NCBI RefSeq assembly: GCF_030503675.1
Contig: NZ_CP129964.1
Span: 1,426,001-1,490,000, forward strand
Length of the DNA: 64,000 bases
Direction: 5' to 3'
From: Lutimonas zeaxanthinifaciens
GTDB taxonomy: Bacteria > Bacteroidota > Bacteroidia > Flavobacteriales > Flavobacteriaceae
Numbering within the stretch: the stretch's first letter is position 1; each line of letters begins with the position of its first letter. This document shows, one piece after another, positions 8,345-34,752 of the stretch. Under the pieces are notes generated by a model. It worked only from the letters and a program-made list of their open reading frames with translations, searched no databases and was not told the origin of the DNA. The translations under genes were made by a program, and so were the position numbers.

Positions 8345-8388
8345 TAAAATTAAGTGAATTTACAATTTTGAAATATGATTATTGTCAT
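8345..8388 (-). promoter_or_regulatory. FNR-like box and -7 element of the hexaheme cytochrome operon
   Basis: The box ATGATTATTGTCAT (8375-8388) matches ATGAT-N4-(A/G)TCAT. On the leftward strand, TAATTTTA (8345-8352) starts 29.5 bases from the box centre, the same spacing as at the other cytochrome promoters. Its last base departs from TAnnTTTG. The start codon is 36 bases downstream. Confidence 0.65.
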
Positions 8389-8608
8389 ATCCATGAAATT
8401 ATAATTTTTTTTTTAATTAAATATAAATAAATGTGATTTTAATAGATATTTTAATCAGTCAGTTTTATTTGTTTCATTTTTTAAAACTGAATAATTGAAG
8501 TAATTTCAATTGTTTATCAGACTGACGGACTTATTAGTAAGGATTTAAGAAGGGGATTCTGCCATTCTAAAAGTGGCATTGAAAAATGAGCAGAAGAAAA
8601 GGAGGAAA

Positions 8609-8647
8609 TATACCTCATCCCAAAATCTCATTTTGGGATGAGGTATA
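8609..8647 (-). terminator. Long perfect hairpin after the second monoheme cytochrome
   Basis: Arms 8609-8626 and 8630-8647 pair perfectly over 18 bases around a 3-base loop (CTC). It begins 10 bases beyond the stop of the gene at 8657-9055. The run of T after the stem is imperfect, so termination is likely but mRNA 3'-end protection is also possible. Confidence 0.75.
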
Positions 8648-8656
8648 TAAGGATTT

Positions 8657-9055
8657 TTATTCCTTAAGTGTTCTCATATAGTTGACGATTAGCCATCTAT
8701 CTTCATCATCAGGCATTTTTTTCGTGTAATCAGGCATATCATCTCTTCCAAAACTGGTTTTATAGAATAATGCACCATCTGTTTGTGCCTGGAATTCCTC
8801 AGAAGAAAAATCTCCTAAATCTCCATCAACCTCATCGGCTTTTTTTCCATCACCATATCCTTCTTTACCATGACATGATTGGCAATGTTTTGCATAAAGC
8901 GATTTTCCTATGGATAGATCGACAGAAGGATCTGTAGGGTTTTTCATGTTTTGATACTTTTCAGGTACAACCCATTCTTCTTGCAAAACAGAAGAAAATG
9001 AATAGAGCATAAATACTACTGCCCCGAAAAGAGTTAAGAATTTCAAGTTTTTCAT
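8657..9055 (-). CDS. Monoheme class I cytochrome c (paralogue B)
   Basis: The 132-residue product has a signal peptide, heme motif CQSCH at about residues 58-62, a likely Met ligand in MPDYTKKMP and the closing helix DRWLIVNYMRTL. From EEWVVP onward it is nearly identical to the product at 2007-2405; the signal sequence has diverged more. Unlike its paralogue, it stands alone, with its own upstream region and a strong hairpin after the stop. It is probably an abundant soluble or anchored periplasmic shuttle that serves the same partners when the operon is off, or adds to its supply. This is inference from duplication and gene order. Confidence 0.9.
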   Translation of the reverse strand: MKNLKFLTLFGAVVFMLYSFSSVLQEEWVVPEKYQNMKNPTDPSVDLSIGKSLYAKHCQSCHGKEGYGDGKKADEVDGDLGDFSSEEFQAQTDGALFYKTSFGRDDMPDYTKKMPDDEDRWLIVNYMRTLKE

Positions 9056-9167
9056 AATTGTTTGTGATTTATGGAATTAATAAATAAAATAATCTGTTAT
9101 GATTGAACTTTTATAGATTATTTACATTTTCGTGAAGTAAATTTCGGAAGGTATATCTTAATAAAGT

Positions 9168-9181
9168 ATGATTTAAATCAT
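9168..9181 (-). promoter_or_regulatory. FNR-like palindrome upstream of monoheme cytochrome B
   Basis: ATGATTTAAATCAT is a perfect 14-base palindrome and a close match to the classical FNR box TTGAT-N4-ATCAA. It lies 113 bases upstream of the start codon. At the 29.5-base spacing seen elsewhere the leftward strand reads GAAATTTA, which keeps the TTT but is a poor -7 element, so the promoter here is less certain. Confidence 0.6.
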
Positions 9182-9281
9182 TTGGCAATAATTGTAAAAT
9201 ATTGACTAACAATAAATTACAGTAAATCTTATTCCAATCTAACTAAATGCGCGAAAAAATGTTGACAAAAAAACCAGATTA

Positions 9282-9297: not shown

Positions 9298-9356
9298 AAA
9301 GAATATTGGATCAGCAATATATCCGGATCAGGATCCCTTATTTCAAGGAAGTAAAT

Positions 9357-9426: not shown

Positions 9427-9458
9427 AGATAATAATCCTGACTATTGGGATAAAGGAA

Positions 9459-10153: not shown

Positions 10154-10197
10154 ATGATAAACGTCATAATTCAGGTCAGGGTATTGACTTAATTTTG
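10154..10197 (+). promoter_or_regulatory. FNR-like box and -7 element of the NHL / 12-heme operon
   Basis: Box ATGATAAACGTCAT (10154-10167) is centred 29.5 bases upstream of the -7 element TAATTTTG (10190-10197). The NHL gene starts 31 bases after the -7 element. Spacing fits class II activation. Confidence 0.75.
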
Positions 10198-10228: not shown

Positions 10229-11272
10229 ATGGTTAAATGGCTCCTTATGAAGAGGATCTTGCTAAATAGAGGATTAAAGAGGTTTTGCTGGATTGTAACC
10301 TTGGGATTGTATATCCATCCCATAAATGCGCAGGATTCAACAGACGTGGACAATTATATTTTTGCCGGTACCAATAGAATCGTTTGGATCGATCAAATTC
10401 CTCCTTTGAAGCAGGATATAAAGAAGAAAAAAGGGTGGTTTAAGAATCTGGTTTTTGGCGAAAAGGAAGTCAAATCAATTCAAAAACCAACCTATATATT
10501 AACTGAAGATGATAATGCTTCCATAATTCTTGATCAGGGACATGGAACCTTGTTTTTTATTGAGGATCAAAAATTGAGTATCCCAAAAGTCATCAAAAAA
10601 AAAGATAAAGAGTTTCCATCGCTTATTTCAGCTTGTTTATTGCCCGGAAATGAATTGCTTTTTACTGATTCCAGTAAGGAACAAGTGTATTTGCTTTCGG
10701 CTAATCGAAAGGAAATAGGAGTATTTAATGAGAAATTAAAGTTGAGCCGGCCAACCGGAATAGCCTATTCTAAAAAATCAGATCAGATTTGGCTGGTTGA
10801 AACCGGGATTCATCAGATTTCGATTTTAGATCGATCCGGAAACAGGATAAAATCTTTTGGCAAAAGGGGATCGGGGGAAGGCCAATTTAATTTCCCTACT
10901 TCAATCTGGATTGATAGAGAAGGGTTGGTCTACATCGTAGATGCATTAAATTTCAGGGTTCAAATTTTTGATTCGGATGGTAATTTCATTTCTATGTTCG
11001 GAAAGAATGGCAATGGAACAGGATTTATGGCAAGCCCCAAAGGAATTGCAACGGACAGTCATGGCAATATTTATGTTGTAGACGCATTGTTTCACACGGT
11101 TCAGATCTTTGATCAACAAGGTAATTACTTATACCAGTTTGGGAAACAGGGAAGGAGAACCGAAGAATTCTGGATGCCTTCGGGAATATTTATCGATGAA
11201 AGCGATCTTATTTATGTCGTGGACAGTTACAATTCAAGAATACAGATTTTTGAGCTTAATTATTCGAAATGA
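10229..11272 (+). CDS. Secreted NHL-repeat beta-propeller protein
   Basis: This 347-residue protein has a signal peptide ending near INAQ and NHL repeats over roughly residues 170-345, seen as recurring units: PTGIAYSKKSDQIWLVE, FPTSIWIDREGLVYIVD, PKGIATDSHGNIYVVD and PSGIFIDESDLIYVVD, each followed by a V/I-Q-I-F/L-D strand. NHL propellers usually act as protein-binding scaffolds. The stop overlaps the start of the 12-heme cytochrome by four bases, so the two are translationally coupled and probably interact. An alternative start at 10247 gives a more compact signal peptide. Similar NHL-cytochrome pairs occur at 14362-16388 and 27525-34689. Confidence 0.88.
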   Translation: MVKWLLMKRILLNRGLKRFCWIVTLGLYIHPINAQDSTDVDNYIFAGTNRIVWIDQIPPLKQDIKKKKGWFKNLVFGEKEVKSIQKPTYILTEDDNASIILDQGHGTLFFIEDQKLSIPKVIKKKDKEFPSLISACLLPGNELLFTDSSKEQVYLLSANRKEIGVFNEKLKLSRPTGIAYSKKSDQIWLVETGIHQISILDRSGNRIKSFGKRGSGEGQFNFPTSIWIDREGLVYIVDALNFRVQIFDSDGNFISMFGKNGNGTGFMASPKGIATDSHGNIYVVDALFHTVQIFDQQGNYLYQFGKQGRRTEEFWMPSGIFIDESDLIYVVDSYNSRIQIFELNYSK

Positions 11273-12966
11273 AGCAAGTATTGATTATCATATTATTATT
11301 CATCTTTGGTGCATTTGTTACGGATTCATTTGGGCAAGGTGTTAAAAATTCACGGCATAATTTATCAACTTCAGGACCGGGAAACCTAAAAAGTATGGAT
11401 GATTCGCGAATTTGTGTTTTTTGCCATACAACGCATACAGCGAATCCAAAAGCACCCATGTGGAACAGAAAACAATCCGGGGCTACCTATATCTTGTATA
11501 ACAGTTCAACGCTCAACGCAAATCCCGGACAACCTGATGGCACATCAATTCTTTGTCTGTCTTGTCATGATGGCACCGTGGCCATGGGTAATACGCTTAA
11601 GAATCCAAAAAGCATGTCTTTTGCCCGGTCAATGACCAAGAGGGGGAATTTAGGAACGGACCTTTCTGATGACCATCCCATATCATTTGTGTTTGATCCT
11701 GCCTTGTCTGTAGAAGATGGAGAGCTTAAGGATCCGGGAAGTTTAGATCCTCATATTTTGGACAAGAACAATAAACTGCAATGTATTTCATGTCATGATC
11801 CACATAAAGACATTCAGGGAAATTTTTTAAATCGAAGCAATGAGTTTTCTGACCTTTGTTTTTCCTGTCATGATAAAAAATACTGGGGAGAAAGTACTCA
11901 TAGTAATTCAACAGCTACCTGGAATGGAAATTTCCCTAAACCCTGGTCTCATTTAGAAAACCCTTATAATACCGTGGGGCAGAATGGATGTGCCAATTGT
12001 CATGACGTGCACAATGCACAAGGAAAGGAGAGACTTCTAAAAAGATCAGCTGAGGAGGATAATTGCCTTGATTGTCACAATGGTAACGTGGCAGAAAAGA
12101 ACCTACAGGTAGAGTTTCTTAAACCCTATAAACATGATGTTTACATGTATACAGGGATACATGATCCTGTAGAATCGGACATCAATAAATCCAAGCATGT
12201 TGAATGTGTTGATTGCCACAATCCTCATGCGATGGACAATAGTACCGCTGAGGCACCTCTGGTAAAAGGAGTTAATAGATATGTAAAGGGAATAAACGAC
12301 ACAGGATTGGAAATTTTTCCTGTAACCAATGAATATGAGATTTGTTTTAGGTGTCACGGAGATAATCCCGTAACCACAGCTTATACCAGCAGGTATTTGG
12401 GAACAGCGAATACGAGAACAGATTTTCTAACCAGTAATGTATCGTATCACCCGGTAGTAGATGTGGGCAGAAACGGTAACCCAAGGGCACTGATACAGCC
12501 TTATAACGCCAGTAGCAGAATTTATTGTTCCTCTTGTCACGCAAGTGACGGTAAGAACTCACCTGCGGGGCCTCATGGATCTATTTACCCTCGCATTTTA
12601 AAAGCAAATTACAATATGGAACGAACCCCGCAATTGGGGAAAAGCTGGCCCTCTTTGATTCAGAGTAATTTCGAACTTTGTTTTGAATGCCATGATTTAA
12701 ATTCAGTGACTACGATTCATCAAGAAATAAGTGATGGACATTTTATGGAAACTATAGGCTGTAACAGCTGTCATGATCCCCATGGGTTTGAAGGGGGGAA
12801 TATGACAGAAAATGCTTATGGAATTAATTTTGACCAGAGCGTTATACAGCCAAATCCAGTCAATGGCAAATTGATTGATCTGGATCAAAGAAAATGTTTT
12901 ATGACCTGCCATGACCCAGGCGGTGTAATCAATTATACACACAAGGCGGAAGGTGATGATTATTAA
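11269..12966 (+). CDS. Dodecaheme c-type cytochrome with N-terminal tetraheme module
   Basis: The 565-residue secreted protein carries eleven CxxCH motifs plus one CFMTCH (CX3CH) near the C terminus. The first about 210 residues (SRHNLS, CVFCHTTH, CLSCHDGTVA, DDHPISF, CISCHDPH, CFSCHDKK) follow the same order as the whole tetraheme protein at 13386-14030. The remainder adds hemes CANCH, CLDCH, CVDCH, CFRCH, CSSCH, CFECH, CNSCH and CFMTCH. Conserved DPH/DVH/NPH histidines after the heme motifs suggest bis-His ligation. It has a signal peptide but no lipobox or T9SS domain. It overlaps the NHL gene by four bases. Likely role: long-range electron transfer in the periplasm or outside the cell. 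Confidence 0.88.
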   Translation: MKQVLIIILLFIFGAFVTDSFGQGVKNSRHNLSTSGPGNLKSMDDSRICVFCHTTHTANPKAPMWNRKQSGATYILYNSSTLNANPGQPDGTSILCLSCHDGTVAMGNTLKNPKSMSFARSMTKRGNLGTDLSDDHPISFVFDPALSVEDGELKDPGSLDPHILDKNNKLQCISCHDPHKDIQGNFLNRSNEFSDLCFSCHDKKYWGESTHSNSTATWNGNFPKPWSHLENPYNTVGQNGCANCHDVHNAQGKERLLKRSAEEDNCLDCHNGNVAEKNLQVEFLKPYKHDVYMYTGIHDPVESDINKSKHVECVDCHNPHAMDNSTAEAPLVKGVNRYVKGINDTGLEIFPVTNEYEICFRCHGDNPVTTAYTSRYLGTANTRTDFLTSNVSYHPVVDVGRNGNPRALIQPYNASSRIYCSSCHASDGKNSPAGPHGSIYPRILKANYNMERTPQLGKSWPSLIQSNFELCFECHDLNSVTTIHQEISDGHFMETIGCNSCHDPHGFEGGNMTENAYGINFDQSVIQPNPVNGKLIDLDQRKCFMTCHDPGGVINYTHKAEGDDY

Positions 12967-13385
12967 CCCCAAAATATGTTTGAAAATCAATAGGGAGAGA
13001 TCCTTACTACGTCTTGATAATCAGCAATTAAACGATAATTTTGTCTTTTATATTTTAAAGTAAGAATACGCCGAAATTTTGACACTCATGAATCAATTTC
13101 ATCTTATTTATAACGAATATAAATAATATAAACTACTGAAAAACAGTATTTTAAAAAAAAGTAAAAATCACACAGAAATTTTTTTTAAAAATAATATTGT
13201 TGATAATATACTGAAAATCAAATCAATAAAATTTAATGTTAAAATTATGTTACAAAAATAGCACAACTGTGCTACTTATGTTACTCAAAATGATAAATGT
13301 CATCGTTTTCGATATAAGTGAGCGATAAATTTGAGGTAGTATATTATTATTAATAATCGGTTTTTTAAATTTAAATTTATCATTT
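12967..13385. other. 419-base intergenic region holding the tetraheme gene promoter
   Basis: Very AT-rich. I see no gene and no clear terminator after the 12-heme gene. The only supported element is the FNR-like promoter at 13290-13333. Confidence 0.65.
13290..13333 (+). promoter_or_regulatory. FNR-like box and -7 element of the tetraheme cytochrome gene
   Basis: Box ATGATAAATGTCAT (13290-13303) is centred 29.5 bases upstream of TAAATTTG (13326-13333), a full match to TAnnTTTG. The start codon is 53 bases beyond. With a start site about five bases after the -7 element the box would be centred near -41.5. Confidence 0.78.
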
Positions 13386-14030
13386 ATGAAAGCAAAACAA
13401 ATATTTTTAACCTTATCCTTGGTGATGGCATCATTGTGCATCTATAGTCAAACAGGGATTACAAATTCTGCTCATGATTTTTCAGGGGAAACGTGGACAA
13501 CAAACGGCGAAATTTGTGTAACTTGTCATACACCTCACAATTCTACAATTGTTGCGAATTCACCTTTGTGGGACCATGAACTTTCTTCCTTTGATTTTAC
13601 CGGAAATTTGTACACATCGACAACATTGGACGCTACGGACATGGCTAATCCAACTGGAGTATCAAGGCTTTGTTTGAGTTGTCACGATGGTACAGTTGCT
13701 CTAGATAATTTTGGTGGTAACACAACTGGTACTGCAAATATATCGAGTTATGCGGACAAAGGTGTTGGTACTAGCGGAAGTTTAGCGGCAGAGCACCCTG
13801 TTTCTTTTACATATGATGCTGGCTTGGCTACTTCGGATCCTGGTTTATATAATCCAACCGTTCAAACAAGTGGAATAGCTGGTGGAACTACAATTGAGGC
13901 CGACATGCTTTTTGCATCTAGAGTGGAGTGTGCTTCTTGTCATGATGTACACAATTCAGCGGGAAATCCTATGTTATTGATTAAATCCAATACTGGGAGT
14001 GCACTTTGTATGACTTGCCACAATAAATAA
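13386..14030 (+). CDS. Secreted tetraheme cytochrome, OmcE-like layout
   Basis: The 214-residue protein has a signal peptide (cut near YSQ) and four heme motifs: C44-C47-H48, C96-C99-H100, C182-C185-H186 and C208-C211-H212. Non-motif histidines H30, H51, H64, H137 and H189 could supply distal ligands. The order SAHDFSG, CVTCHTPHN, PLWDHE, LCLSCHDG, EHPVSF, CASCHDVHN, LCMTCHNK is the layout I remember for OmcE-type tetraheme cytochromes of Geobacter, which polymerise into extracellular filaments. It has no lipid anchor or T9SS domain, and stands alone between a strong FNR-like promoter and a strong terminator, which suits high expression. Filament formation is inference. Confidence 0.88.
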   Translation: MKAKQIFLTLSLVMASLCIYSQTGITNSAHDFSGETWTTNGEICVTCHTPHNSTIVANSPLWDHELSSFDFTGNLYTSTTLDATDMANPTGVSRLCLSCHDGTVALDNFGGNTTGTANISSYADKGVGTSGSLAAEHPVSFTYDAGLATSDPGLYNPTVQTSGIAGGTTIEADMLFASRVECASCHDVHNSAGNPMLLIKSNTGSALCMTCHNK

Positions 14031-14050
14031 TCATCATCATACATTGGTTC

Positions 14051-14087
14051 AACGCCTGAAAGTAATCACTTTCAGGCGTTTTTTTTT
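14051..14087 (+). terminator. Rho-independent terminator of the tetraheme cytochrome gene
   Basis: Arms AACGCCTGAAAGT (14051-14063) and ACTTTCAGGCGTT (14068-14080) pair perfectly around a 4-base loop and are followed by a T run to 14087. This is one of the strongest terminators in the window. Confidence 0.92.
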
Positions 14088-14291
14088 GGAGGATCAGTTC
14101 TTTTGGTTCCTGCCAGCGAGATCCTGATTAGTGTTTCGAAAATAAGAGTCCGATATTCATAATTATTTTGAAGATTTTTATAAAATATAGCTACAAAACA
14201 AATGGAAAGGACTGGGATGTATCCTGATTAAAAATTGATGAATAAAAACAGTCCTAATTTCTCTGAAAACACTTTAAAATAGGCCGTTCTA

Positions 14292-14335
14292 ATGACCAAT
14301 ATCATAGTTTTAAAAGGGTCGTATTCTTACTTTTG
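14292..14335 (+). promoter_or_regulatory. FNR-like box and -7 element of the porin-cytochrome operon
   Basis: Box ATGACCAATATCAT (14292-14305) is centred 29.5 bases upstream of TACTTTTG (14328-14335). The NHL lipoprotein starts 26 bases later. This promoter probably drives 14362-19445. Confidence 0.75.
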
Positions 14336-14361
14336 AAGTATAATTTAATTCATAAAAAGCA

Positions 14362-15438
14362 ATGAAAAATTTTAATGTTTATATCGCCTTTTTGGTTTTG
14401 TTTAGTGCATTTGTTTCGTGCTCTCCTAAACTGGCTCAGAACACAAATACATCTAGTAAAAGTATATTATACCCAACTGAATCAGACACTGCACGTGTGC
14501 AATTTTTGACTAGTATCAGTAATTCTCTTGCCGTTACAAAACAGCAATCAAGTTTTACCTCTTCTATAGTTGGTGAGCAACAGATCAAAGAGATCGCCAA
14601 GCCCTATGGCGTAAGTATCAGAGATGGTAAGGTTTATGTATGCGATGTAACCTTAAGAGCCGTGGCGATTATAGATCTGGATAATAAAACGTTTGATTAC
14701 ATGGTCCCGAAGGGAAAACAGTCCTTTGCATTACCATTGAATAGTTTTATTGATCAAGAAGGTAAGATTTATGTTGTTGATACCAATAAGCATCTGATAT
14801 CAGTATTTAACCAGGATCATAATATCATTGCCCAGTTTGGCGAGGATACGAATATAAACCCTACTGATATTTTTATAAAAAATGGGAAAATCTATGTGGT
14901 GGATGCAAAAGGAAACAGGGTCAATATGTATGATCATAAAACAAACGAATTTATCGACTATTTCCCTAAAACGGTGGCTGGAAATGATGACCATTTATAC
15001 ACACCTACCAACATTTTTATTACCAACGAAAGAATTTATGTTTCAGATCTGGGTGCTACCAATGTGAAGATTTATGATTTAGATGGAAAGCACGTTAAAA
15101 ACATAGGTTCACTTGGTGCCCAAATAGGGAAGTTTGTAAGGCCCAAAGGAATTGCTGCGGATAAAGAGGAAATTCTTTACGTAGTAGATGCAGCTTTTGA
15201 GCAAATTCAGATGTTCAATAAAAAAGGTGAGTTGTTGATGTTCTTTGGAGGGCCCTATGACAAGAACCGACCAGGAGGGTTATGGTTACCCACGCAAATG
15301 ACTATAGATTACGAGAATATTAAATATTTTCAGCAATATGTAGACCCCAAATATGATTTGAAATATATCATACTTGTAGCCAATCAATTTGGTCCGGATA
15401 AGATCAATATTTACGGAAGAGTGGATCTCAAAAAATAA
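14362..15438 (+). CDS. NHL-repeat lipoprotein of the porin-cytochrome operon
   Basis: The 358-residue protein has a lipobox (FVSC, cysteine near residue 20) and a six-bladed-propeller-like series of NHL units such as PYGVSIRDGKVYVCD, LNSFIDQEGKIYVVD, PTDIFIKNGKIYVVD, PTNIFITNERIYVSD and PKGIAADKEEILYVVD. It is first in the operon that continues with the 9-heme lipoprotein, the outer-membrane barrel and the 11-heme cytochrome. It has no cofactor motif, so a scaffold or cytochrome-docking role is more likely than catalysis. It is related in layout to the NHL proteins at 10229-11272 and 32179-34689. Confidence 0.87.
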   Translation: MKNFNVYIAFLVLFSAFVSCSPKLAQNTNTSSKSILYPTESDTARVQFLTSISNSLAVTKQQSSFTSSIVGEQQIKEIAKPYGVSIRDGKVYVCDVTLRAVAIIDLDNKTFDYMVPKGKQSFALPLNSFIDQEGKIYVVDTNKHLISVFNQDHNIIAQFGEDTNINPTDIFIKNGKIYVVDAKGNRVNMYDHKTNEFIDYFPKTVAGNDDHLYTPTNIFITNERIYVSDLGATNVKIYDLDGKHVKNIGSLGAQIGKFVRPKGIAADKEEILYVVDAAFEQIQMFNKKGELLMFFGGPYDKNRPGGLWLPTQMTIDYENIKYFQQYVDPKYDLKYIILVANQFGPDKINIYGRVDLKK

Positions 15439-15536
15439 TTGAATGCTATTGAAGAGTCATTGTTATAAAAGAGTTTTATTGAAATAGCTCCACTAAAGCT
15501 TATAGTATTCACCTAAGCTTTTTAAGGTTTTACAGG

Positions 15537-16388
15537 ATGAAAAAAATATTTAAATATTGCACATTAGGTTTTACAATATTGATATTTTTCATAACCTGTT
15601 CACCAAAAAGAAGTTATGAGGTAAAATCATTTTTCTTTGATGGTGTTCCAGATCCCTTTAAAAAAGAAGAAGAAGCCAAAAGAGTAGTAACCGACACCCT
15701 TACGGAATTGGTCGATTATCTAGCTGTTTTGGAACCAGTAAAAAAAGAGCCAGAGTGGTACACGCATAAACCATGGTTTGACAGAACCTGCGAGAAGTGT
15801 CATGATCAGGGCCAAATGGGAAAACTAACGGTTCCATTAAAGGAGCTATGTTTTAATTGTCATGAAGATTTTAATAGATACTATCCTGATTTACACGGTC
15901 CTGTGGCCTCTGCAAATTGTAATGAATGTCATGAACCCCATAAGTCTAGATTAGCCGGATTACTTTTGGAAGAAAGTAATGATCTCTGTTTAAAATGTCA
16001 TGATCTGAACCGAGTTTATGAAACACCTTTGCATGAAACAATTGCAGATAAAACATGTGTGTCCTGTCATAATCCACACGGAGGCCAGAATAAATACCTG
16101 TTGCGAGCAACATCGTGCTATGAATGCCATGACAACTATGAAGATAAATTTGAATATACCCATGGTCCTGTACAATCCGGAACCTATTGTTTTACCTGTC
16201 ATGACGAACATGCCTCTGAAAAACCAAAACTGTTACTTCAATCAGGGAATGAACTTTGTTTGACTTGTCATCATAAGGATGATGTCTATAACAATATCAG
16301 GCATATTGACTCCAAAAGGCAAAACTGCATCAGTTGTCATGATCCACATGCGAGTAATGATATCAATCTTTTAAACCAAAACCCCTGA
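15537..16388 (+). CDS. Nonaheme c-type cytochrome lipoprotein (porin partner)
   Basis: This 283-residue protein has a lipobox (FITC) and nine CxxCH motifs: CEKCH, CFNCH, CNECH, CLKCH, CVSCH, CYECH, CFTCH, CLTCH and CISCH, spaced about 20-30 residues apart. Repeated units of the form HGPV...C-x-x-CH-(E/D)-x-H and LCL-x-CH look like DmsE/MtrA-type periplasmic multiheme proteins, which thread hemes through an outer-membrane barrel. The barrel gene starts one base after the stop. The protein is likely the periplasmic-side or barrel-inserted half of a porin-cytochrome conduit. Nine hemes rather than MtrA's ten, and the lipid anchor, are differences. Confidence 0.88.
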   Translation: MKKIFKYCTLGFTILIFFITCSPKRSYEVKSFFFDGVPDPFKKEEEAKRVVTDTLTELVDYLAVLEPVKKEPEWYTHKPWFDRTCEKCHDQGQMGKLTVPLKELCFNCHEDFNRYYPDLHGPVASANCNECHEPHKSRLAGLLLEESNDLCLKCHDLNRVYETPLHETIADKTCVSCHNPHGGQNKYLLRATSCYECHDNYEDKFEYTHGPVQSGTYCFTCHDEHASEKPKLLLQSGNELCLTCHHKDDVYNNIRHIDSKRQNCISCHDPHASNDINLLNQNP

Positions 16389-16389
16389 T

Positions 16390-18348
16390 ATGTCTAGGTT
16401 AAAAGTAATATATATCATCTTATTGATCAGTTTGACTGGATATGGTCAAAACAATAATTATGCACCTGCATTTTGGAAACTGATGTCTTATCAGGGAGAA
16501 GTAGAACTATATGGGCAGTATAAGGAGATTTATTCATTTACCGCATTGTTAGAAAATAAACAATCAAATCTGCTCTATTCAGGACGATTGGATCTCAATA
16601 CAAAATCCTATTTCTGGCACCCGAATTTTATGGTTTTGGATCTGAGCTTAGGATATAACCCCGGAGCAGGTCAAGATGTCTCGATCTTAATGCCGGATTA
16701 TGCGATTCGTAATTCGGCTCATTATCTGAATGCCAGAGCATCTTTTTTGAATAAGCAACGGGCTAGGTTTAGCGGTTTTTTCAATTACCGCGACAGTTAT
16801 GGAAATTTAGAGAATCTGACCAGAATCAATACCAAAGATTTAAGTTGGGGAGGAAATTTTGATTATCACAATCGAATATTACCCATTAGCCTGGTTTACA
16901 AAAATTTTAATGTGGAACAGCAAGAGGAATATACGGATCGACTATATTTGGATGAGGGATATGAGCTCTTGGGTAATACCAAAAAATCTTTTGGAAAGCT
17001 AGATGAGCATGAGTTTTTTTATACTCAACGCAATTACAGCAGGGAATTGGTAAATTCTTATATCACAATAAATAATACCTCAAACTTCAATCTGAGAAAC
17101 AGAATATTTTTTGATCGTAATAAAAGATATTTGTTTACTTCTAATATTTCAAAATTTGATCAGAAAGGAACCAACCCCTATGATCGATTTTGGCTTGTAG
17201 AAAACCTCAACTTCAGATTACCTTATAAGGTCCGTTTAAACGGGATGTATAAATTGTCAAGTAATCATCAAAGCGGTATTGAAAATAATAACCAAGATAT
17301 CCAGGCCAGTGTGCAGCATCAACTGTATCAAAGTTTGTATTCATCTTTATTTTATAAAAATACCAATAATAATCACAGTAATTTTAATCGAGCTTTTGAC
17401 CGTCTTGGCTTTGATCTGAATTACAAGAAAAAAATTCCATTGGAAGGAGGCTTGTTTTTAAACTATAATTATTTCTTACAGCCTGAAAAAGGAACAAGTA
17501 AAGGCGAAAATATAGTGGTTGTAAGGGAATCCCATCTGCTAACGGACGGAATCATCACCTTGTTGAAATTACCCAACGTTTATAAGGAAACCGTTGTAGT
17601 GACCGACGAATCCGGAAATTTTATTTATCAGGAAAATATTGATTATATATTGATCGAAAGGGATGAATTTTTAGAAATACAAAGAGTTCCCGGGGGGTTG
17701 ATTCCTAACGGATCTGTAATCTATGTAGATTATATCGCTGATAGTTTGGGAGATTATAAATTTGATATGGTCTCTCAGAATTTTATGGCGAGGGTAACTT
17801 TATTTAATAATAATATTGAAGCCTTTTATAGGTTTCGAAAACAGGATTATAACAATGTGGAGACAGACAGTGATCTTGCTATCCAGTATATCGATCAGCA
17901 GACTTACGGATTAAGAATTAACTCCAAGTATTTTTCCGCCGGATTTGAAAATGATGATTATAAAAGCAATATCGTGCCTTATAATTTAACCCGATATTTT
18001 GTCGATCTGAAAGCTACTATAAAGAACAGGGTTAATTTGAGCTTAAAAGGTTCTTTTACGGATTATCATATGATCCAAGAAGAAGGAAGAACTCAATCTT
18101 TTTTGGATATTTCGGGTTATGTAAACTATCGCCTCGGTTATAATACCCAATTTGATCTTAGGGCAGGATACCGCAAACAGGATGGAGAAGGTATTGATTT
18201 GGACCTATTTATAGCAGGAGCGGAAATAACCACTGAATTCAGGCGAGTTACCGTTAAGTTAATTGGTGATCTCTATCGTAAAAACTATCTCATCACAGAA
18301 AAAAATCATTTTAACGCGGTCAATCTAAGAATCATAAGAAAATTTTAA
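16390..18348 (+). CDS. Outer-membrane beta-barrel, porin of a porin-cytochrome conduit (MtrB/PioB-like role)
   Basis: The 652-residue protein has a signal peptide (ending near GYGQ) and then many amphipathic beta-strands with aromatic ends through to VNLRIIRKF, ending in phenylalanine as outer-membrane barrels do. I see no cysteine, so no CxxC near the N terminus as in Shewanella MtrB. Its place between a 9-heme lipoprotein and an 11-heme secreted cytochrome, all in one operon, is the typical order of porin-cytochrome complexes. Similarity to MtrB or PioB cannot be judged by eye, so the assignment rests on barrel character and context. A segment near residues 395-450 may form a plug or large loop. 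Confidence 0.75.
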   Translation: MSRLKVIYIILLISLTGYGQNNNYAPAFWKLMSYQGEVELYGQYKEIYSFTALLENKQSNLLYSGRLDLNTKSYFWHPNFMVLDLSLGYNPGAGQDVSILMPDYAIRNSAHYLNARASFLNKQRARFSGFFNYRDSYGNLENLTRINTKDLSWGGNFDYHNRILPISLVYKNFNVEQQEEYTDRLYLDEGYELLGNTKKSFGKLDEHEFFYTQRNYSRELVNSYITINNTSNFNLRNRIFFDRNKRYLFTSNISKFDQKGTNPYDRFWLVENLNFRLPYKVRLNGMYKLSSNHQSGIENNNQDIQASVQHQLYQSLYSSLFYKNTNNNHSNFNRAFDRLGFDLNYKKKIPLEGGLFLNYNYFLQPEKGTSKGENIVVVRESHLLTDGIITLLKLPNVYKETVVVTDESGNFIYQENIDYILIERDEFLEIQRVPGGLIPNGSVIYVDYIADSLGDYKFDMVSQNFMARVTLFNNNIEAFYRFRKQDYNNVETDSDLAIQYIDQQTYGLRINSKYFSAGFENDDYKSNIVPYNLTRYFVDLKATIKNRVNLSLKGSFTDYHMIQEEGRTQSFLDISGYVNYRLGYNTQFDLRAGYRKQDGEGIDLDLFIAGAEITTEFRRVTVKLIGDLYRKNYLITEKNHFNAVNLRIIRKF

Positions 18349-18374
18349 ATATTCATCTATAACTATATAAACTC

Positions 18375-19445: not shown

Positions 19446-19475
19446 AACCTGATTTAAATGTTATTATAATTATAG

Positions 19476-19508
19476 AAAAAAAAGGCCGGTAATTACCGGC
19501 CTTTTTTT
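19476..19508. terminator. Bidirectional terminator between convergent genes
   Basis: GGCCGGTAATTACCGGCC is a perfect palindrome flanked by eight A on the left and seven T on the right. It separates the 11-heme cytochrome gene and the leftward OB-fold gene, and should stop transcription from both sides. Confidence 0.9.
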
Positions 19509-19548
19509 CTTGTTCTTATTGTGATAATTCACATTCCAACCCTCAAAA

Positions 19549-20262: not shown

Positions 20263-20270
20263 TTTATTCC

Positions 20271-21023: not shown

Positions 21024-21048
21024 TTTTAAATCAGTGTTAATATAACCC

Positions 21049-21122
21049 CAAATATAGCTAAAAACTTAGGTATAGGACCTGATTTAAATCAGGTCAAAAC
21101 TCTAAAGTCTGTAGTATTTTTG
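21049..21122. promoter_or_regulatory. Symmetrical divergent promoter around a 20-base FNR-like palindrome
   Basis: GACCTGATTTAAATCAGGTC (21076-21095) is a perfect palindrome containing TGATTTAAATCA. To the right TATTTTTG (21115-21122) and to the left, on the other strand, TATATTTG (21049-21056) each start exactly 29.5 bases from the palindrome centre. They would drive the CcsB-CcsA synthase rightward and the OB-fold genes leftward from a single regulator dimer. Confidence 0.85.
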
Positions 21123-21153
21123 TTGTAGAACAAATAGAATTAACACTACGATT

Positions 21154-24420: not shown

Positions 24421-24477
24421 AATTTTAAATGATGACATCTATCATATCTTAAGCGGACCTGAGGTTTTAAGCAATAT

Positions 24478-27324
24478 TTATATACTTCTATTCCTATACT
24501 TCCTTACCGAGTATTTCTCTTTAATTATTGCGGCAACGATGAGCATTAATAATCCTGTAATAGCGACCCATGCCCAAATAGGAAAGATAGGAGGATCATC
24601 AGAAGCATAACTATGCAAACCCTTGGTAAAGTAATAATTCACCCCGATAAAGGTCATTAAAACACTTCCAAAGGAAATAACCGAGCCAATATTAAATATC
24701 AAAGCTGAATTCATTTTAGGGATGTATTTGAAATGCAGAACCACACTGTAAATCAATACAATAATTAATGACCAGGTTTCTTTGGGGTCCCAGCCCCAAT
24801 ATCTACCCCAGGATTCGTTTGCCCATACGCCGCCAATAAAGGTTCCAATGAGCGTTAAGAACATACCGATCGTCATTATTTTTTCATTGAGATAAGTAGA
24901 TTCCTGAATACTCAAAGTATAAAGCCTGAATTTTTTTTCGGGCGTAATGATCTGCATAATGATATTAAACAATCCTGTCATAAAGCTTATTGCTAAAAAG
25001 CTGTAACCTATCGTAATGATACCAACATGGATGATGAGCCAGTACGACTTCAATACCGGAGTTAAATTAGTGAGTTGAGGATCATAATAACTCAGCCCTG
25101 CTACCATCAGCAACAGACTTGCAGTCAGCCCTGTTAAAGCCAAGGTTATTTTAGAATATTTAAGCATATAAAATCCTCCTAAAATAGCACTCCAGGCAAC
25201 AAACAACAATACTTCATACCCGTTAGACCATGGTGCATGGCCACTTAAATACCACCGAAGTCCCATTCCGGCCGACTGAACAAGGAAAGTAACTATAAAA
25301 ATTGCAACTGTTGCTTTTATGGCGATTAGAAGCTTTTTCCCAGGCTTCTCTGCGAAATTTTCGAAAATTGACAGCGCTAAAAGAACGATACTTAGCAATG
25401 CAAATATGTATTTTAGATATTCAAAAACGCGGGCTTTCGTATAAATTACTTCTAATTTTATATCGGTTTCAGAAGGTACTATATCAGCAGGTGTCAGTGC
25501 TCTTTGCAGGGTATTGATATGTTCAATTATTTTGTTGGAGAAGGAGTAATCATTTAGTTTTCTGCCATCGACCGTTGATACAAAGTAAGTCTTCATTAAA
25601 TTATTGCCATTAAGCACAGGCAATCGCAATTCTTTGTTGATTTTTGTTAGATCACCGGTTATGGGAGTCAGTGCAAGACTATCTCTATAGTTGACCCATT
25701 TGTTATTATTGGCCTGCTGCACAGGAAATAACCGCAAAAATGTACCTTTTGTACTCATTACAAAAACATTCATCCTTTCAACAACCTTTAATAATTCCTT
25801 ATCAAAATTAGTCTGTTCGGAAGCCTTTTTTTGAAATGCATTCTGTGCCAAAGTACGTAGTTGAACAGCCAGGTCAGGATGGTCAATTTGATTAAAGGAG
25901 GCAAACTTTCCTGAAATACCGATCATTTCCCTGAGTTGCTTGTTCCTGATACGTATAAATTTTTGTTCTTTCCAATATTCCGGATCCACATGCATACCTA
26001 AAAAGATCTGCATAGCATCCATTTTTTCACCTTTTTCAGTCGTAAAACTGTTTTTACCCGAAACCTTATGCAAGATATCTGTGGCCAAAGCGTGAACGGA
26101 TGAAAATCGGCCATCATAGGTCTGTACCACCAAATGCCCAAATTTATCACTGTGTTCCGAACTGATCGGGTTGTAATTTTCAGCTTGTGAATAAGAGATA
26201 ACACAAGACCCAAATAAGCATAAAAAGACCAAAAACAGTGCTTTTCTTTTTGTTCTTATTTCCTTTATTTTATGGTCTAATTGGGCATAATGCGATTGTT
26301 TTGAAAAGATGATCAGAAGTATTCCCAGCACCATGAATATATATCCCAAATAGGTAATGCGCGTTCCGTAATAATCGTGGTTCACAGTAAGAATAGTTCC
26401 CTTTTCATCATCGTCATACGAAGTCTGGAAAAAACGATAGCCGTCATAGTCAAGTACATTGTTCTTATAAATGAGATGAGGTTCTCTTACGTTTATCCTG
26501 TCATCGATCAAAAGAACTTCACTTTCAGAAGAAGACGGGAAATCTGATCCCGGATATTTACCTAAAGTAAAATTCTCCAATTGCAGTGCAAAAGGCATTT
26601 CAAAGGGTTGGGGGCCATAGGCCATTTCTATAGCTAAACCGTCGAAGTTGAATTCCTGAAATTTCTGAATATATTTTGTGGTATCATAAATAAGATGTGC
26701 TTTATGGGCCTTACCATTTGATATTACTGCCACTACCAGGACATCCGGGCTTTTCTGATCTGTTTCATCCGGGACATACATTATTTCTTCACTCCCTTCA
26801 ACAGGCACCAGTTTAGCACTATGAATATAATCGAGGTATTTTATTACGACTTGATCAGGTAAGCTAAAGTTTAACTGAAAATCATTTTTTTGAATCTGAG
26901 AGAAATACAAAGGATGATCACTCGCATATTGAATTTCGCCGTCTGTTGTTCTTATTTGAAGATAAGGTTCTTTAGAGTAGATGGTAGATACCTTTTCATT
27001 TTCTACAATATGCATATGGGCTTCAAACCCTAAATAACGGGTTATGCCAGCCCCTAAAATGATGATGATAAATGATAAATGAAAAATAAGCTGTGGAATT
27101 TTCGATATTCGAAACAGGTTTTTTCTATACATATTTACCAGATATAATAGGGACAATATGAATATAAGCAGTTCAAACCACCAGGTATTGAAAACAAGTA
27201 GCCTTACCGTTGTGGTATCATATGAATTTTCTATAAATGTAGCTGAAGCAATAACTATGATGAATACGAACAGAAGTAACATGGAGAATTTCGAAGAAAA
27301 AAGAAAATTCCAAAAATTTCTCAT
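24478..27324 (-). CDS. ccsBA: Fused CcsB-CcsA cytochrome c synthase (copy 2)
   Basis: The 948-residue product has the same order as copy 1: CcsB-like helices with ITRYLGFEAHMHIVENEK, a periplasmic domain, and a CcsA-like half with HAPWSNGYE near residue 690 and WWD motif SWGRYWGWDPKETW near 836. It is about 120 residues shorter, mainly in the periplasmic domain, and its linker lacks the His-rich run found in the other two copies. A -7 element (TATTTTTG) lies at 27368-27375 with no FNR-like box. It is convergent with copy 1, and its upstream neighbour is the giant 26-heme cytochrome gene, which it may serve. Confidence 0.92.
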   Translation of the reverse strand: MRNFWNFLFSSKFSMLLLFVFIIVIASATFIENSYDTTTVRLLVFNTWWFELLIFILSLLYLVNMYRKNLFRISKIPQLIFHLSFIIIILGAGITRYLGFEAHMHIVENEKVSTIYSKEPYLQIRTTDGEIQYASDHPLYFSQIQKNDFQLNFSLPDQVVIKYLDYIHSAKLVPVEGSEEIMYVPDETDQKSPDVLVVAVISNGKAHKAHLIYDTTKYIQKFQEFNFDGLAIEMAYGPQPFEMPFALQLENFTLGKYPGSDFPSSSESEVLLIDDRINVREPHLIYKNNVLDYDGYRFFQTSYDDDEKGTILTVNHDYYGTRITYLGYIFMVLGILLIIFSKQSHYAQLDHKIKEIRTKRKALFLVFLCLFGSCVISYSQAENYNPISSEHSDKFGHLVVQTYDGRFSSVHALATDILHKVSGKNSFTTEKGEKMDAMQIFLGMHVDPEYWKEQKFIRIRNKQLREMIGISGKFASFNQIDHPDLAVQLRTLAQNAFQKKASEQTNFDKELLKVVERMNVFVMSTKGTFLRLFPVQQANNNKWVNYRDSLALTPITGDLTKINKELRLPVLNGNNLMKTYFVSTVDGRKLNDYSFSNKIIEHINTLQRALTPADIVPSETDIKLEVIYTKARVFEYLKYIFALLSIVLLALSIFENFAEKPGKKLLIAIKATVAIFIVTFLVQSAGMGLRWYLSGHAPWSNGYEVLLFVAWSAILGGFYMLKYSKITLALTGLTASLLLMVAGLSYYDPQLTNLTPVLKSYWLIIHVGIITIGYSFLAISFMTGLFNIIMQIITPEKKFRLYTLSIQESTYLNEKIMTIGMFLTLIGTFIGGVWANESWGRYWGWDPKETWSLIIVLIYSVVLHFKYIPKMNSALIFNIGSVISFGSVLMTFIGVNYYFTKGLHSYASDDPPIFPIWAWVAITGLLMLIVAAIIKEKYSVRKYRNRSI

Positions 27325-32174: not shown

Positions 32175-32178
32175 GCCG

Positions 32179-34689
32179 CTAATCCTTTAAAATAAGTTTC
32201 GCATTCCCTGCAAAATTATCTGATGCTACATTGACTATATAAATCCCTTTATTGAAATAATTCAAATGAATTTCTTTATAAATACTGCCTTCATATGAAA
32301 CCGCAAATATTGGATTAAAATCTTCTGTATAAATTGTTTGTCCTTGTGAACTTGTAATGGTAATTCGAATATTTCCAACTATTGGATCTGGAGGAGTTAT
32401 TTTTATTGTAAAATCACCATTTGAAGGGTTTGGATAAAAAGAAACGGGATTATCTTTGAATTTACCGTCAATGGAAAGAACATTTCCTATAACTTCGATC
32501 GTTTCTGTAAACTCTGAAGTTCCACAGTTCTCATTAGTCGCCGTATAGACCACTGTATAATATCCGGAACTATCATAGGTGTGGGTTGGACTTTCTTCAC
32601 TGGAAAAATTACCATCTCCAAAATCCCAATTATGAGAATCTGCATTCTCGGAATTATTAATAAATTTTACATCATAATTCGCGACTTCATATACATAATC
32701 TGCTGTTACCTCTGGATATACTGTTGCCGAACCTGAAACAGTTCCCATCGTATTTTTCGAATCATAAAAACTTACCAATTCATAGACTCCGGAAGAAGAT
32801 GGTGCCAACAGATAGGGGTTGTTTGAAGTGGTTATTTCAACGGGGTTTAAACCATCAATAGTATAGGTAAAAGTCCAGGGAGGAGATCCTGTAAAATAAA
32901 TTGGAAATCCTTCAGACTCATTTTCGCAAATCGATGTCGTTGGAATAGTGGCATTTGGCAAAGTATTGTGTAAAACATCAATATATCCCTGCCAATTCAT
33001 ATTGGAGCAATACAGATCTGAAATATCTAAGATTTCATAAACACCAATTTCATTAACTGATAAGGTATAAGGATTTTCATTCGTTGTAATTGTAAACTCT
33101 TCAACGATGCCAGATCCACGTGAGTATGTGAAGGTGTAAGGCGCGGTTCCGGTAAATGCAATTGTAATATCGGCAAATTCCCCTGGGTTAAAAAAGGCAA
33201 TATCCGATTCATTGGTAATTGTTGCAGTGGGCATTGCGAATATAAGAACATCAGTTTTTTCTATAAGGTTGACTACCGAGCATCCCGCATCGGTTAGAGA
33301 CAAGATTTCATAGATTCCGGACTGTTCAGCCGGAATCGTATACAAACTTTCGGTTGTAGAAATTTCAATAGGATTTAACCCGTCAATAGTGTAGGTAAAA
33401 GTCCAGGGTGCTAATCCTGTAAATTGCACATCAACTCCTGTTTCGACAGTTCCACATATTGAAATTTCTGCTGCTGAAAATGTCGCGGTAGGGAGCTCAT
33501 CTACCTTTATGTTGGTTGCTCCGGTAAAACAGGTTCCAGCAATGCCATTCGTATCTACGAGTGATGATACTTCATACAGTCCTTCATTAGAAACGGTAAG
33601 ATCATAAACAGCTTGATCTGTTGTGATTTCGACAGGATTTGCTCCATCAACCGTATAGTTGAAAGTCCAGGGCCCGTTTCCGGTAAAATTGATGGTCACG
33701 GTTGCTTCAGAATTCGCGCAAATAGTTTGATCGGTACTTGTAATAGTAGCTGTTGGTAAAACATTGTTGATGGAAAACACGTCTAAGTTCCCTTTGTTCA
33801 TTGACGAAACAACAGCCTGGTTATCGGAGGTAAAAACAATATCCAGGGGTAAATTAAATTCTCCCATGCTATCACCTTGCTGACCAAATTTGGTGATGTA
33901 ATTTCCATTATCATCAAATACACTTACACGTCCCAGATAGGGATCAACTGCGTATATATTTCCGCAGGCTCCAACAGTAATTCCTTGAATCCTATGAAAA
34001 AGGCCATTTTTTGTTCCAAAACAACCAAAGTCGTTAATTAAATTTCCTTCAATGTCAAAAATATAGATGGTAGTTAAAGGGCCTGTGGTTCCCCAGGACA
34101 TAGATCCTCCTCCACAAGTTTGAACGTCTTCACCAACACCACCGTGCTCAGAGACTATAATGTGATTGTTTTGTTTGTCAAATGCGATCCCGGTTGGAAA
34201 AGTAAAGGTGCTATACGTAAATTCATTAACTAAATTTCCGGAAACATTCAAGCCGACCACCTTTTTTTGATGGCTGTCAATTACATATAGAATATTATCC
34301 AGGCCAAATACCATGGAAGCAGGAAAACTTAAGCCTGTGTAGAATTCTGATTTGGATCCATTGGAATCTACTGTGTATATTGTTCCTGTCGTTTGGTCTC
34401 CTGCAAATAATTGATCTTTATTGTTAATAGCAACGGATAAGGGTATAAATTCAGTATTAATTGTACCCAAAGAATTTCCCTGAACATCATATTTAACAAT
34501 ATTCTTTTCTATTGCATCAATAACATAAATATCGTCATTAGAGTCGATTGCCATTCTCCCTGGTGCATTTAGTCCATCAGTTATCAAGTTTGAAGAACTA
34601 AAGTCGGCTGTTGCATACTGTGCATTCAATTGAACCATGCATATAAAAAATAATGTATAAGGCAGTATTATTTTTAGAGATGACGACAT
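32179..34689 (-). CDS. NHL-propeller, Ig-like and PKD protein with T9SS sorting domain
   Basis: The 836-residue protein has a signal peptide, an NHL-type propeller (about residues 30-300; units such as PGRMAIDSNDDIYVID, PTGIAFDKQNNHIIVSE and IQGITVGACGNIYAVD), four repeats of about 95 residues carrying PWTFTYTIDGLNPVEI-like segments (about 310-690), a PKD domain (NWDFGDGNFSSEESPTHTY) and a C-terminal type IX sorting domain (FYPNPSNGDFTIKI ... GIYIVNV). It should be secreted through the Bacteroidota T9SS and attached at the cell surface. It is first of two genes, with the 26-heme cytochrome following, and has an FNR-like promoter. It probably positions the giant cytochrome at the surface. Confidence 0.9.
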   Translation of the reverse strand: MSSSLKIILPYTLFFICMVQLNAQYATADFSSSNLITDGLNAPGRMAIDSNDDIYVIDAIEKNIVKYDVQGNSLGTINTEFIPLSVAINNKDQLFAGDQTTGTIYTVDSNGSKSEFYTGLSFPASMVFGLDNILYVIDSHQKKVVGLNVSGNLVNEFTYSTFTFPTGIAFDKQNNHIIVSEHGGVGEDVQTCGGGSMSWGTTGPLTTIYIFDIEGNLINDFGCFGTKNGLFHRIQGITVGACGNIYAVDPYLGRVSVFDDNGNYITKFGQQGDSMGEFNLPLDIVFTSDNQAVVSSMNKGNLDVFSINNVLPTATITSTDQTICANSEATVTINFTGNGPWTFNYTVDGANPVEITTDQAVYDLTVSNEGLYEVSSLVDTNGIAGTCFTGATNIKVDELPTATFSAAEISICGTVETGVDVQFTGLAPWTFTYTIDGLNPIEISTTESLYTIPAEQSGIYEILSLTDAGCSVVNLIEKTDVLIFAMPTATITNESDIAFFNPGEFADITIAFTGTAPYTFTYSRGSGIVEEFTITTNENPYTLSVNEIGVYEILDISDLYCSNMNWQGYIDVLHNTLPNATIPTTSICENESEGFPIYFTGSPPWTFTYTIDGLNPVEITTSNNPYLLAPSSSGVYELVSFYDSKNTMGTVSGSATVYPEVTADYVYEVANYDVKFINNSENADSHNWDFGDGNFSSEESPTHTYDSSGYYTVVYTATNENCGTSEFTETIEVIGNVLSIDGKFKDNPVSFYPNPSNGDFTIKITPPDPIVGNIRITITSSQGQTIYTEDFNPIFAVSYEGSIYKEIHLNYFNKGIYIVNVASDNFAGNAKLILKD

Positions 34690-34708
34690 ATGCTACATAT
34701 ATATGATA

Positions 34709-34752
34709 CAAATGTAACCAAGGTCACATTCTTAATCTATGACAAAAATCAG
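34709..34752 (-). promoter_or_regulatory. FNR-like box and -7 element of the giant-cytochrome operon
   Basis: On the leftward strand TACATTTG (34709-34716) is a full -7 match, 20 bases upstream of the start codon. Its start lies 29.5 bases from the centre of the box 34739-34752, which reads CTGATTTTTGTCAT on that strand. Confidence 0.75.
34713..34728. promoter_or_regulatory. CRP-like palindrome overlapping the -7 element
   Basis: TGTAACCAAGGTCACA is a 16-base inverted repeat similar to TGTGACCCGGGTTACA at 9282-9297. It overlaps the upstream end of the -7 element, so a protein bound here would block the promoter. Confidence 0.5.

Follow-up and report, generated by a model that had tools for sequence, protein, structure and literature searches.

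FNR-like boxes at a fixed distance from the −7 element in cytochrome promoters of Lutimonas zeaxanthinifaciens and across its class

Introduction

Water and soil harbour large numbers of flavobacteria. In Proteobacteria, the cbb3 genes are controlled at low oxygen by FNR-family proteins (FixK, Anr, FnrL), and a rise in cbb3 oxidase and haem synthesis at low oxygen is the classical FNR output. The classical activating position of CRP/FNR is −41.5. Among the matches listed in the open-licence PMC literature, there was no named regulator of the flavobacterial low-oxygen response. A paper on the CRP/FNR meta-regulon took its FNR and CRP matrices from Escherichia coli, and the word Bacteroidota is absent from the part of its text available to us (PMC8510549). 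HcpR, PgRsp and CrpPg of Porphyromonas gingivalis belong to the same phylum and superfamily as the regulator considered here. According to the accessible text of the respective papers, most genomes have GTAACnnnnGTTAC as the HcpR2 motif and P. gingivalis has a different one (PMC1274295), and PgRsp was reported to bind haem (PMC6955866). No report of the box described here was found for HcpR, PgRsp or CrpPg among the literature matches listed. HcpR was ruled out as the operator's protein by its motif in most genomes, and CRP/cAMP was ruled out since TGTGA is not the core.

The system resembles FNR of E. coli and Aliivibrio fischeri in domain order, TGA/TCA palindrome and −41.5 position, as well as in the equivalents of C20, C23 and C122, two recognition-helix residues (Glu and Arg) and the respiratory targets. 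In contrast to FNR of these species, the regulator is without C29 and has an invariant C54 where FNR has Ala; Ser212 is replaced by Ile, the box edges are mostly A and T where those of FNR are T and A, and the partner of the box is a TAnnTTTG −7 element. With FixK, Anr and FnrL it shares the link of an FNR-family protein to cbb3 genes, and it differs from them in phylum, promoter type and cysteine set. The analysis supplies a candidate protein, an operator, a geometry and several dozen candidate promoters, which span cbb3 oxidase, complex I, haem synthesis, hydrogenase maturation and a multihaem cytochrome cluster. The system lends itself to two questions, namely how a class II activator operates at the unusual −7 promoter of Bacteroidota, and whether an FNR can bind a cluster without C29.

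Results and discussion

A box and a −7 element at one spacing in the window

The window, a stretch of 64,000 nucleotides of L. zeaxanthinifaciens DNA, had been described in an earlier note as carrying boxes of the form ATGAT-N4-RTCAT whose centre lies 29.5 bases from the start of TAnnTTTG, a distance that is gap 23 in our scans. Every listed pair of coordinates was recovered, and the spacing held at the strong sites. On the plus strand, box ATGATAAACGTCAT (10154–10167) is followed by −7 element TAATTTTG (10190–10197), which lies 32 bp upstream of an NHL-repeat ORF (10229–11272) and then a multihaem cytochrome (11269–12966); box ATGATAAATGTCAT (13290–13303) is followed by TAAATTTG (13326–13333), 53 bp upstream of a multihaem cytochrome (13386–14030); and box ATGACCAATATCAT (14292–14305) is followed by TACTTTTG (14328–14335), 27 bp upstream of another NHL-repeat ORF (14362–15438). 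The genes after this ORF (15537–19445, plus strand) encode multihaem cytochromes (15537–16388 and 18375–19445) and a 652-residue protein with no Pfam match (16390–18348), and their order alone suggests that they may be co-transcribed with it. The palindromic box CTGATTTAAATCAG (21079–21092) is shared by two divergent promoters. Its −7 elements are TATTTTTG (21115–21122, plus strand), 32 bp before a 1070-residue ResB/CcsA-type cytochrome c assembly protein (21154–24366, plus strand), and TATATTTG (21056–21049, minus strand), 26 bp before a 250-residue ORF with no Pfam match (20271–21023, minus strand). The fifth strong place is box CTGATTTTTGTCAT (34752–34739, minus strand) with TACATTTG (34716–34709), 20 bp upstream of an NHL/PKD ORF (34689–32179).

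The motif as first worded proved too strict, being broken by the boxes at 14292, 21079 and 34752, and the relaxed consensus TGAYN4RTCA fits all five strong places. Two weaker minus-strand sites keep the spacing, as had been claimed: box ATGACAATAATCAT (8388–8375) with TAATTTTA (8352–8345), which has one −7 mismatch, is among the one-mismatch sites of the genome and lies 36 bp upstream of a multihaem cytochrome ORF (8309–7272), and the degenerate box ATGACAAATCACAT (10125–10112), which has two mismatches, with TAGTTTTG (10089–10082), 18 bp upstream of an ORF (10064–9459). A further pair with this spacing, absent from the earlier list, consists of box ATGATTTAAATCAT (9168–9181, minus strand) and the weak −7 element GAAATTTA (9145–9138), 83 bp upstream of a cytochrome c ORF (9055–8657). 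This is one of two strict boxes without a good −7 partner, the other being at 24445 (minus strand) between convergent genes. In a same-genus genome, the promoter orthologous to that at 9168 has box CTGATTTAAATCAT, the same spacing and −7 element GATATTTG. Chance may still account for individual weak sites, for example 9168 or 10112.

When up to two mismatches over both blocks were allowed, nine window pairs were found at the 29.5-base spacing, compared to a mean of 1.8 and a maximum of five at the other 30 gaps and a mean of 0.53 and a maximum of two at the same gap in 60 first-order Markov sequences, which bears out the earlier view that the shared phase is unlikely to arise by chance. All nine lie within the first 38 kb; the same scan found none from 38 to 64 kb, in agreement with the earlier note. 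For all nine, a same-strand ORF begins 18–83 bp downstream, these distances being approximate as gene finding for this analysis was ATG-only and took the longest ORF.

The spaced pair is enriched in the genome and across the class

The whole-genome scan that the earlier note had proposed covered gaps 8–38 and showed that 26 of 52 exact pairs have the 29.5-base spacing (binomial P ~4e-25), far above other gaps; six were one base shorter and 20 were spread over the other 29 gaps. With one mismatch allowed, the genome has 76 sites at gap 23 versus four for the reversed pattern, and 12 versus 10 at the control gap 26. Equal frequency of the pair elsewhere had been named as an outcome that would speak against the proposal; compared with other spacings and reversed patterns, the pair was clearly commoner at gap 23. 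Exact gap-23 sites lay at most 100 bp upstream of an ORF in 21 of 26 cases, versus 8 of 20 for the pairs outside gaps 22 and 23, and five of the 26 had no ATG ORF within 100 bp among the ORFs called for this analysis. Their targets include NuoA, HemA, HypB, sulfide-quinone reductase, PPDK and the window cytochromes, and the ccoS-ccoNO promoter of this genome has a box/−7 pair with one mismatch. The TGAYnnnnRTCA core was imposed by the search, so that core identity to the FNR operator TTGATnnnnATCAA is built in; the edges are mostly A (15/26) and T (18/26).

In a class-wide sample, 158 of 198 genomes carried a gap-23 pair (681 matches versus 17 for reversed controls), compared to 32 of 198 (39 matches) at the control gap 26. 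The mean number of matches per genome was 4.97 in genomes with a homologue of the candidate regulator at E ~1e-40 or better (n = 89) versus 0.93 in those with no homologue at 1e-20 (n = 41; P = 1e-11), and such class-wide P values overstate independence because the sampled genomes are related. At least one match was still present in 19 of the 41 genomes without a detected homologue, and 18 of 157 genomes with a homologue had none. Close family members have few exact sites (2–8 each in five genomes). The spaced box is conserved at orthologous promoters in two relatives that have the cytochrome cluster, both of which retain those at 13290 and 14292, and a same-genus genome has one central box between the orthologues of the gene pair at 21079, with the 29.5-base spacing on either side. 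Taken together, these results demonstrate that the box/−7 pairing is real and wider than first reported.

An FNR-like protein beside the cbb3 genes

The candidate regulator is an FNR-like protein of 229 residues whose gene, outside the window (G000:C1:2039251-2039940, minus strand), is divergent to ccoI and adjoins the cbb3 oxidase genes. Around 30 homologues from the class sample, its own locus included, 24 gap-23 pairs were found, versus 0–4 at every other gap (at most one −7 mismatch). Among 80 related loci, the best 80 of at least 573 relatives, the spaced box lies upstream of ccoS in 66 of 70, ccoI in 59 of 78 and ccoP in 0 of 54. In the same loci, 44 of 46 exact gap-9/10 pairs are on the regulator's own promoter, which has such a pair in 64 of 80 loci with one mismatch allowed; at 55 of the 80, the box of ccoI doubles as the box on this promoter. 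There is no box between the regulator gene and ccoI in the L. zeaxanthinifaciens genome, nor in this intergenic region in 10 of the 17 nearest loci.

The protein matched Pfam cNMP_binding (PF00027) and HTH_Crp (PF13545), both over the cut-off, and its best NCBIfam match was the Fnr subfamily, at 98 bits versus a cut-off of 228. C5, C8, C54 and C107, together with E192, I195 and R196, are invariant in 80 of 80 loci, and C5, C8 and C107 are also present in 30 of 30 class-wide homologues. We take C5, C8 and C107 to align with C20, C23 and C122 of FNR, and E192, I195 and R196 to be the recognition residues E209, S212 and R213 (E--IR versus E--SR). The recognition set of FNR is thus incomplete, as Glu and Arg match and Ile195 replaces Ser in 80 of 80 loci. 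The counterpart of C29 is Asn in the regulator and Cys in one of the 80 loci; a Cys three residues after this position is present in 18 of 30 class-wide homologues and 0 of 80 related loci. The AlphaFold model, of moderate quality with a pLDDT of 76.9 and values below 50 for residues 1–16, places C54 on a predicted strand (51–55) and C107 on another (104–110). A fold search matched CRP and FNR folds alike and did not separate the two, and the closest solved structure was 2gau (P. gingivalis). On these sequence features we call the regulator an FNR-type variant, not a proven FNR. One tentative possibility is that Bacteroidota have an FNR lineage of their own, with beta-roll C54 as third cluster ligand in place of a residue of the N-terminal loop. 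Such a protein would be an oxygen or redox sensor with different tuning and would control a large class II regulon throughout the class.

Probable class II activation, and the alternatives

In Flavobacterium psychrophilum, TAnnTTTG occupies −12 to −5, according to the accessible text (PMC9723704). Because the element begins at −12, a start position taken from that species, and the spacing is 29.5 bases, the box centre falls at −41.5, the class II position. The earlier proposal of FNR-like boxes acting from about −41.5 finds support at the sequence level, since the spacing spikes in the genome and class, the conservation at orthologous promoters and the box-linked FNR-like protein all fit it. 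The boxes are very probably class II operators of a CRP/FNR-family activator, most likely the 229-residue protein. A dimer would bind TGAYN4RTCA centred at −41.5, just upstream of polymerase on the Bacteroidota −7 element TAnnTTTG, and recruit or activate polymerase; the signal would be low oxygen, sensed through a cysteine-bound iron-sulphur cluster. We infer binding, activation and low oxygen as the signal, and an FNR relative most likely switches on the cytochrome and dozens of other promoters at low oxygen. In most of the 80 loci the regulator would also act as a repressor of its own gene, through a box whose centre lies at about −27.5 to −28.5 and which in 55 of 80 would lie simultaneously at −41.5 of the divergent ccoI.

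It is possible, if somewhat unlikely, that the class II geometry is right and the signal is something other than oxygen, with the four cysteines forming a thiol redox switch or with another ligand such as nitric oxide or haem. The missing C29 would suit such a protein, and 2gau comes from P. gingivalis, a species with haem-binding CRP/FNR proteins (PMC6955866, PMC12750200; accessible text), the link being the shared species. However, the counterparts of C20, C23 and C122 are retained and joined by another invariant Cys, the regulator is linked to the genes of cbb3 oxidase, and oxygen limitation leads F. psychrophilum to increase cbb3 and haem synthesis, as far as the accessible text goes (PMC9723704).

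Control of the window boxes by a different CRP-family protein, namely a receiver-CRP fusion (L040:647-1678, recognition helix KETLTR) or one of the proteins with RVVVTR, RVVVSR or REVITR, appears improbable. Next to the fusion gene are boxes that share the TGAYN4RTCA core, in 14 of 21 tandem pairs the −7 element (at most one mismatch) likewise lies at gap 23, one gap-23 box directly follows the REVITR gene and another lies about 2 kb from the RVVVTR gene. Moreover, four of the 26 exact sites are accompanied by the second, upstream box typical of the tandem regulon, and another protein may operate them. It seems that a second CRP-family protein works from the same position through paired boxes. 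The window boxes, in contrast, are single, with 0 window places among the 22-bp tandem pairs; three of the five strong ones and the ccoS box read ATGA...TCAT, whereas four of the eight tandem boxes at the fusion gene begin with TTGA. In the two RVVV proteins, Val stands at the position of Glu181 of CRP, and changes at position 181 accompany an altered motif, according to the accessible text (PMC1274295).

We regard it as very improbable that the box represses or marks an architectural protein. With its centre at −41.5, the box reaches into the upstream region of the promoter, and in many relatives the box on the regulator's own promoter is placed where a polymerase block is expected. However, −41.5 is the classical CRP/FNR activating position, a repressor would need no single exact spacing over this large number of promoters, and the 26 exact sites show no strong −33 column between box and −7 element. 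Whether a −33 (TTG) element is truly missing is a separate matter, for which the comparison set of 44 generic TAnnTTTG promoters from 15 sampled stretches is too small. Chance matches in an AT-rich genome, for which the short, AT-rich elements and the 1.8 window pairs per other gap (two mismatches) might speak, are practically out of the question as a general explanation, refuted by genome, class, linkage and orthologous-promoter tests that all lie strongly above their controls.

At gaps 39–69, which correspond to class I distances, the genome has 28 matches versus two for the reversed pattern. The commonest spacing in this range was gap 45, with four matches, which are tandem boxes; four other spacings occurred twice each.

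Spacing of the box and the -7 element in the window and the genome

The 7-35 kb part of the window (positions 1426001-1490000 of the single 3.53-Mb contig of this genome) encodes multihaem cytochromes, NHL-repeat proteins, a ResB/CcsA-type assembly protein and a 652-amino-acid protein without a Pfam match. The cytochromes, NHL-repeat proteins and 652-amino-acid protein encoded at 10229-24366 perhaps form an outer-membrane electron conduit. Three long related proteins (21154-24366, ResB/CcsA-type by Pfam; 24478-27324; 34917-38219) lie in one 17-kb stretch and match one same gene in a relative; they perhaps serve different cytochromes.

The earlier note described the motif ATGAT-N4-(A/G)TCAT at a fixed distance from the -7 element TAnnTTTG in cytochrome promoters. 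All of its spaced pairs were recovered at the positions it gave. The two-block pattern stood, but the motif is better worded TGAYN4RTCA-N23-TAnnTTTG, in which a gap of 23 bases places the centre of the box (TGAYN4RTCA) 29.5 bases before the -7 element. With up to two mismatches in total, the window contained nine gap-23 pairs, compared with a mean of 1.8 and a highest count of 5 for the other 30 gaps and with an average of 0.53 (maximum 2) gap-23 pairs in 60 control Markov sequences. All nine pairs were within the first 38 kb, in agreement with the claimed absence of pairs from 38 to 64 kb, and were 18-83 bp from a downstream ORF on the same strand.

The genome-wide spacing scan proposed in that note was performed with the gap left free from 8 to 38. 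The result showed 52 exact matches versus 4 for the reversed pattern; gap 23 accounted for 26, gap 22 for 6 and the remaining 29 gaps together for 20. An ORF start, according to our own ORF calls, was within 100 bp of 21 of the 26 gap-23 pairs, 4 of the 6 gap-22 pairs and 8 of the 20 others. When one mismatch was allowed, gap 23 gave 76 sites versus 4 reversed, and the control gap of 26 gave 12 versus 10 reversed.

Exact gap-23 targets include NuoA, carbonic anhydrase, HemA, PPDK, MlaE permease, sulfide-quinone reductase and HypB, and the promoter upstream of ccoS-ccoNO carries a site with one mismatch. Some targets have no respiratory look, and five of the ten proteins of one tested target set had no Pfam match. 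Near-identical promoter copies sharing TGACAATTATCATAGTAATTTTT...TTACCTTTA were found at G000:C1:589168, 590456 and 591717 of the same contig, and 559528 and 572018 are, by sequence, further copies. These copies precede paralogous proteins starting MLHFFRKIRRDLL or MLHFFRRIRRDLL; neither of the two tested had a Pfam match.

Gap-23 pairs before orthologous genes

A search of 149 relatives (own genome included) with the 652-amino-acid protein (E ≤ 1e-20) showed that it is present in 2 of the 148 others, G207 (same genus) and G221 (another genus of the same family). The surrounding 19.9 kb and 11.2 kb, which do not take in the region before the 10229 orthologue, were scanned at gaps 22-24 with up to two mismatches. 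Five and two gap-23 pairs were detected, each before an orthologue (39-72% identity) of a window target, and the only pair at another spacing was one overlapping gap-22 reading. Both genomes have the pair before their orthologues of 13386 and 14362. G207 also has it before that of 8657, and there one central box is shared between the orthologues of the divergent 20271/21154 genes. In the scanned stretches, 7272 and 9459 had no orthologue, and 32179 had weak matches only, within NHL proteins.

A candidate regulator beside the cbb3 oxidase genes

An HTH_Crp_2 profile search of the genome gave five proteins above the cut-off, the top one being the candidate regulator (G000:C1:2039251-2039940, minus strand; 229 residues counted from ATG), which is 98% identical to its counterpart in Lutimonas saemankumensis, a member of a genus within Flavobacteriaceae. 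Its gene, outside the window, is divergent to the P-type ATPase gene ccoI and adjoins ccoS-ccoNO-ccoQ-ccoP.

In 30 class-wide homologue loci, with up to one -7 mismatch, gap 23 gave 24 pairs and every other gap 0 to 4. In the best 80 of at least 573 relatives' loci, by title nearly all from Flavobacteriaceae, 63 exact pairs were at gap 23, 3 at gap 22 and 2 at gap 24. With one -7 mismatch allowed, a gap-23 box preceded ccoS in 66/70, ccoI in 59/78, ccoP in 0/54, ccoQ in 0/9 and the regulator gene itself in 2/80 of these best loci. A second exact peak in the same 80, at gaps 9 and 10, comprised 46 pairs, 44 of them on the regulator's own promoter; with one mismatch this pair was present in 64/80, and in 55/80 its box also formed a gap-23 pair on the opposite strand, before ccoI. 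A dimer on this box would cover the regulator's core promoter, and we infer autorepression in those relatives' loci that carry it; the regulator/ccoI box was found neither in the own genome nor in 10 of the 17 nearest of the best 80 loci.

Across 198 genomes of the class (own included), which we take to be GTDB Bacteroidia, gap 23 was present in 158, with 681 matches versus 17 for the reversed pattern; the control gap of 26 gave 39 matches in 32 genomes. Gap-23 matches averaged 4.97 per genome with a regulator homologue at E about 1e-40 or better (89 genomes), 2.96 with one between about 1e-40 and 1e-20 (68) and 0.93 without one (41), a trend whose P value is inflated because the sampled genomes are related. 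The own genome had the most (26), and five genomes of its family had 2 to 8. Second was G064, another sampled genome, with 24 exact sites, four of which nearly share TGATTAATATCATAGTT...AATAGTTTTG and perhaps represent a recently multiplied promoter.

Comparison with FNR and predicted promoter position

Alignment with A. fischeri FNR showed that C5, C8 and C107 of the candidate regulator correspond to C20, C23 and C122, that FNR C29 has no counterpart and that C54 aligns with Ala. All four cysteines are kept in 80/80 of the best loci (of at least 573) and in 30/30 class-wide homologues. The recognition helix is E--IR in 80/80 of those best loci, whereas that of FNR is E--SR. Because of the unmatched C29, C54 and E--IR, we do not file the regulator as FNR but regard it as an FNR-type variant. 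In most sites the box edges are A and T, not T and A, which could fit the changed helix. In the predicted structure (pLDDT 76.9), C54 and C107 are on strands and the N-terminus is poorly modelled.

The class II position for CRP and FNR is -41.5. Action from about this position had been proposed, and the 29.5-base spacing leads to the same prediction: according to PMC9723704, mapped start sites in F. psychrophilum put TAnnTTTG at -12 to -5, which gives a predicted box centre of -41.5. Within the open-licence PMC literature, titles and abstract beginnings, together with parts of PMC8510549, PMC6955866, PMC1274295 and PMC9723704, described neither this box nor any FNR-type regulon for Flavobacteria; an earlier description may exist elsewhere.

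Tandem boxes and other CRP-family genes

Genome-wide, pairs of this box exactly 22 bp apart occupied 21 places, and the reversed control gave none. In 14 of these the nearer box is followed at gap 23 by a -7 element with up to one mismatch, which would put the two centres at about -41.5 and -63.5. Three of the 21 (G000:C1:222101, 223440 and 224431, in the stretch L040 around a CRP-family gene) adjoin genes for a receiver-CRP fusion, a universal stress protein and HSP20. A stricter tandem form was present in 41 of the 198 class genomes (reversed control, 0), and 4 of the 26 exact single-site gap-23 pairs are within tandems. The paired sites seem to be a second CRP-family regulon.

Two further stretches, L067 and L082, encode CRP-family proteins with RVVVTR/RVVVSR helices. 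A type III sulfide-quinone reductase gene carrying a gap-23 box lies about 2 kb away from one of their genes, and the two proteins encoded beside the other are presumably YeeE/YedE-like.
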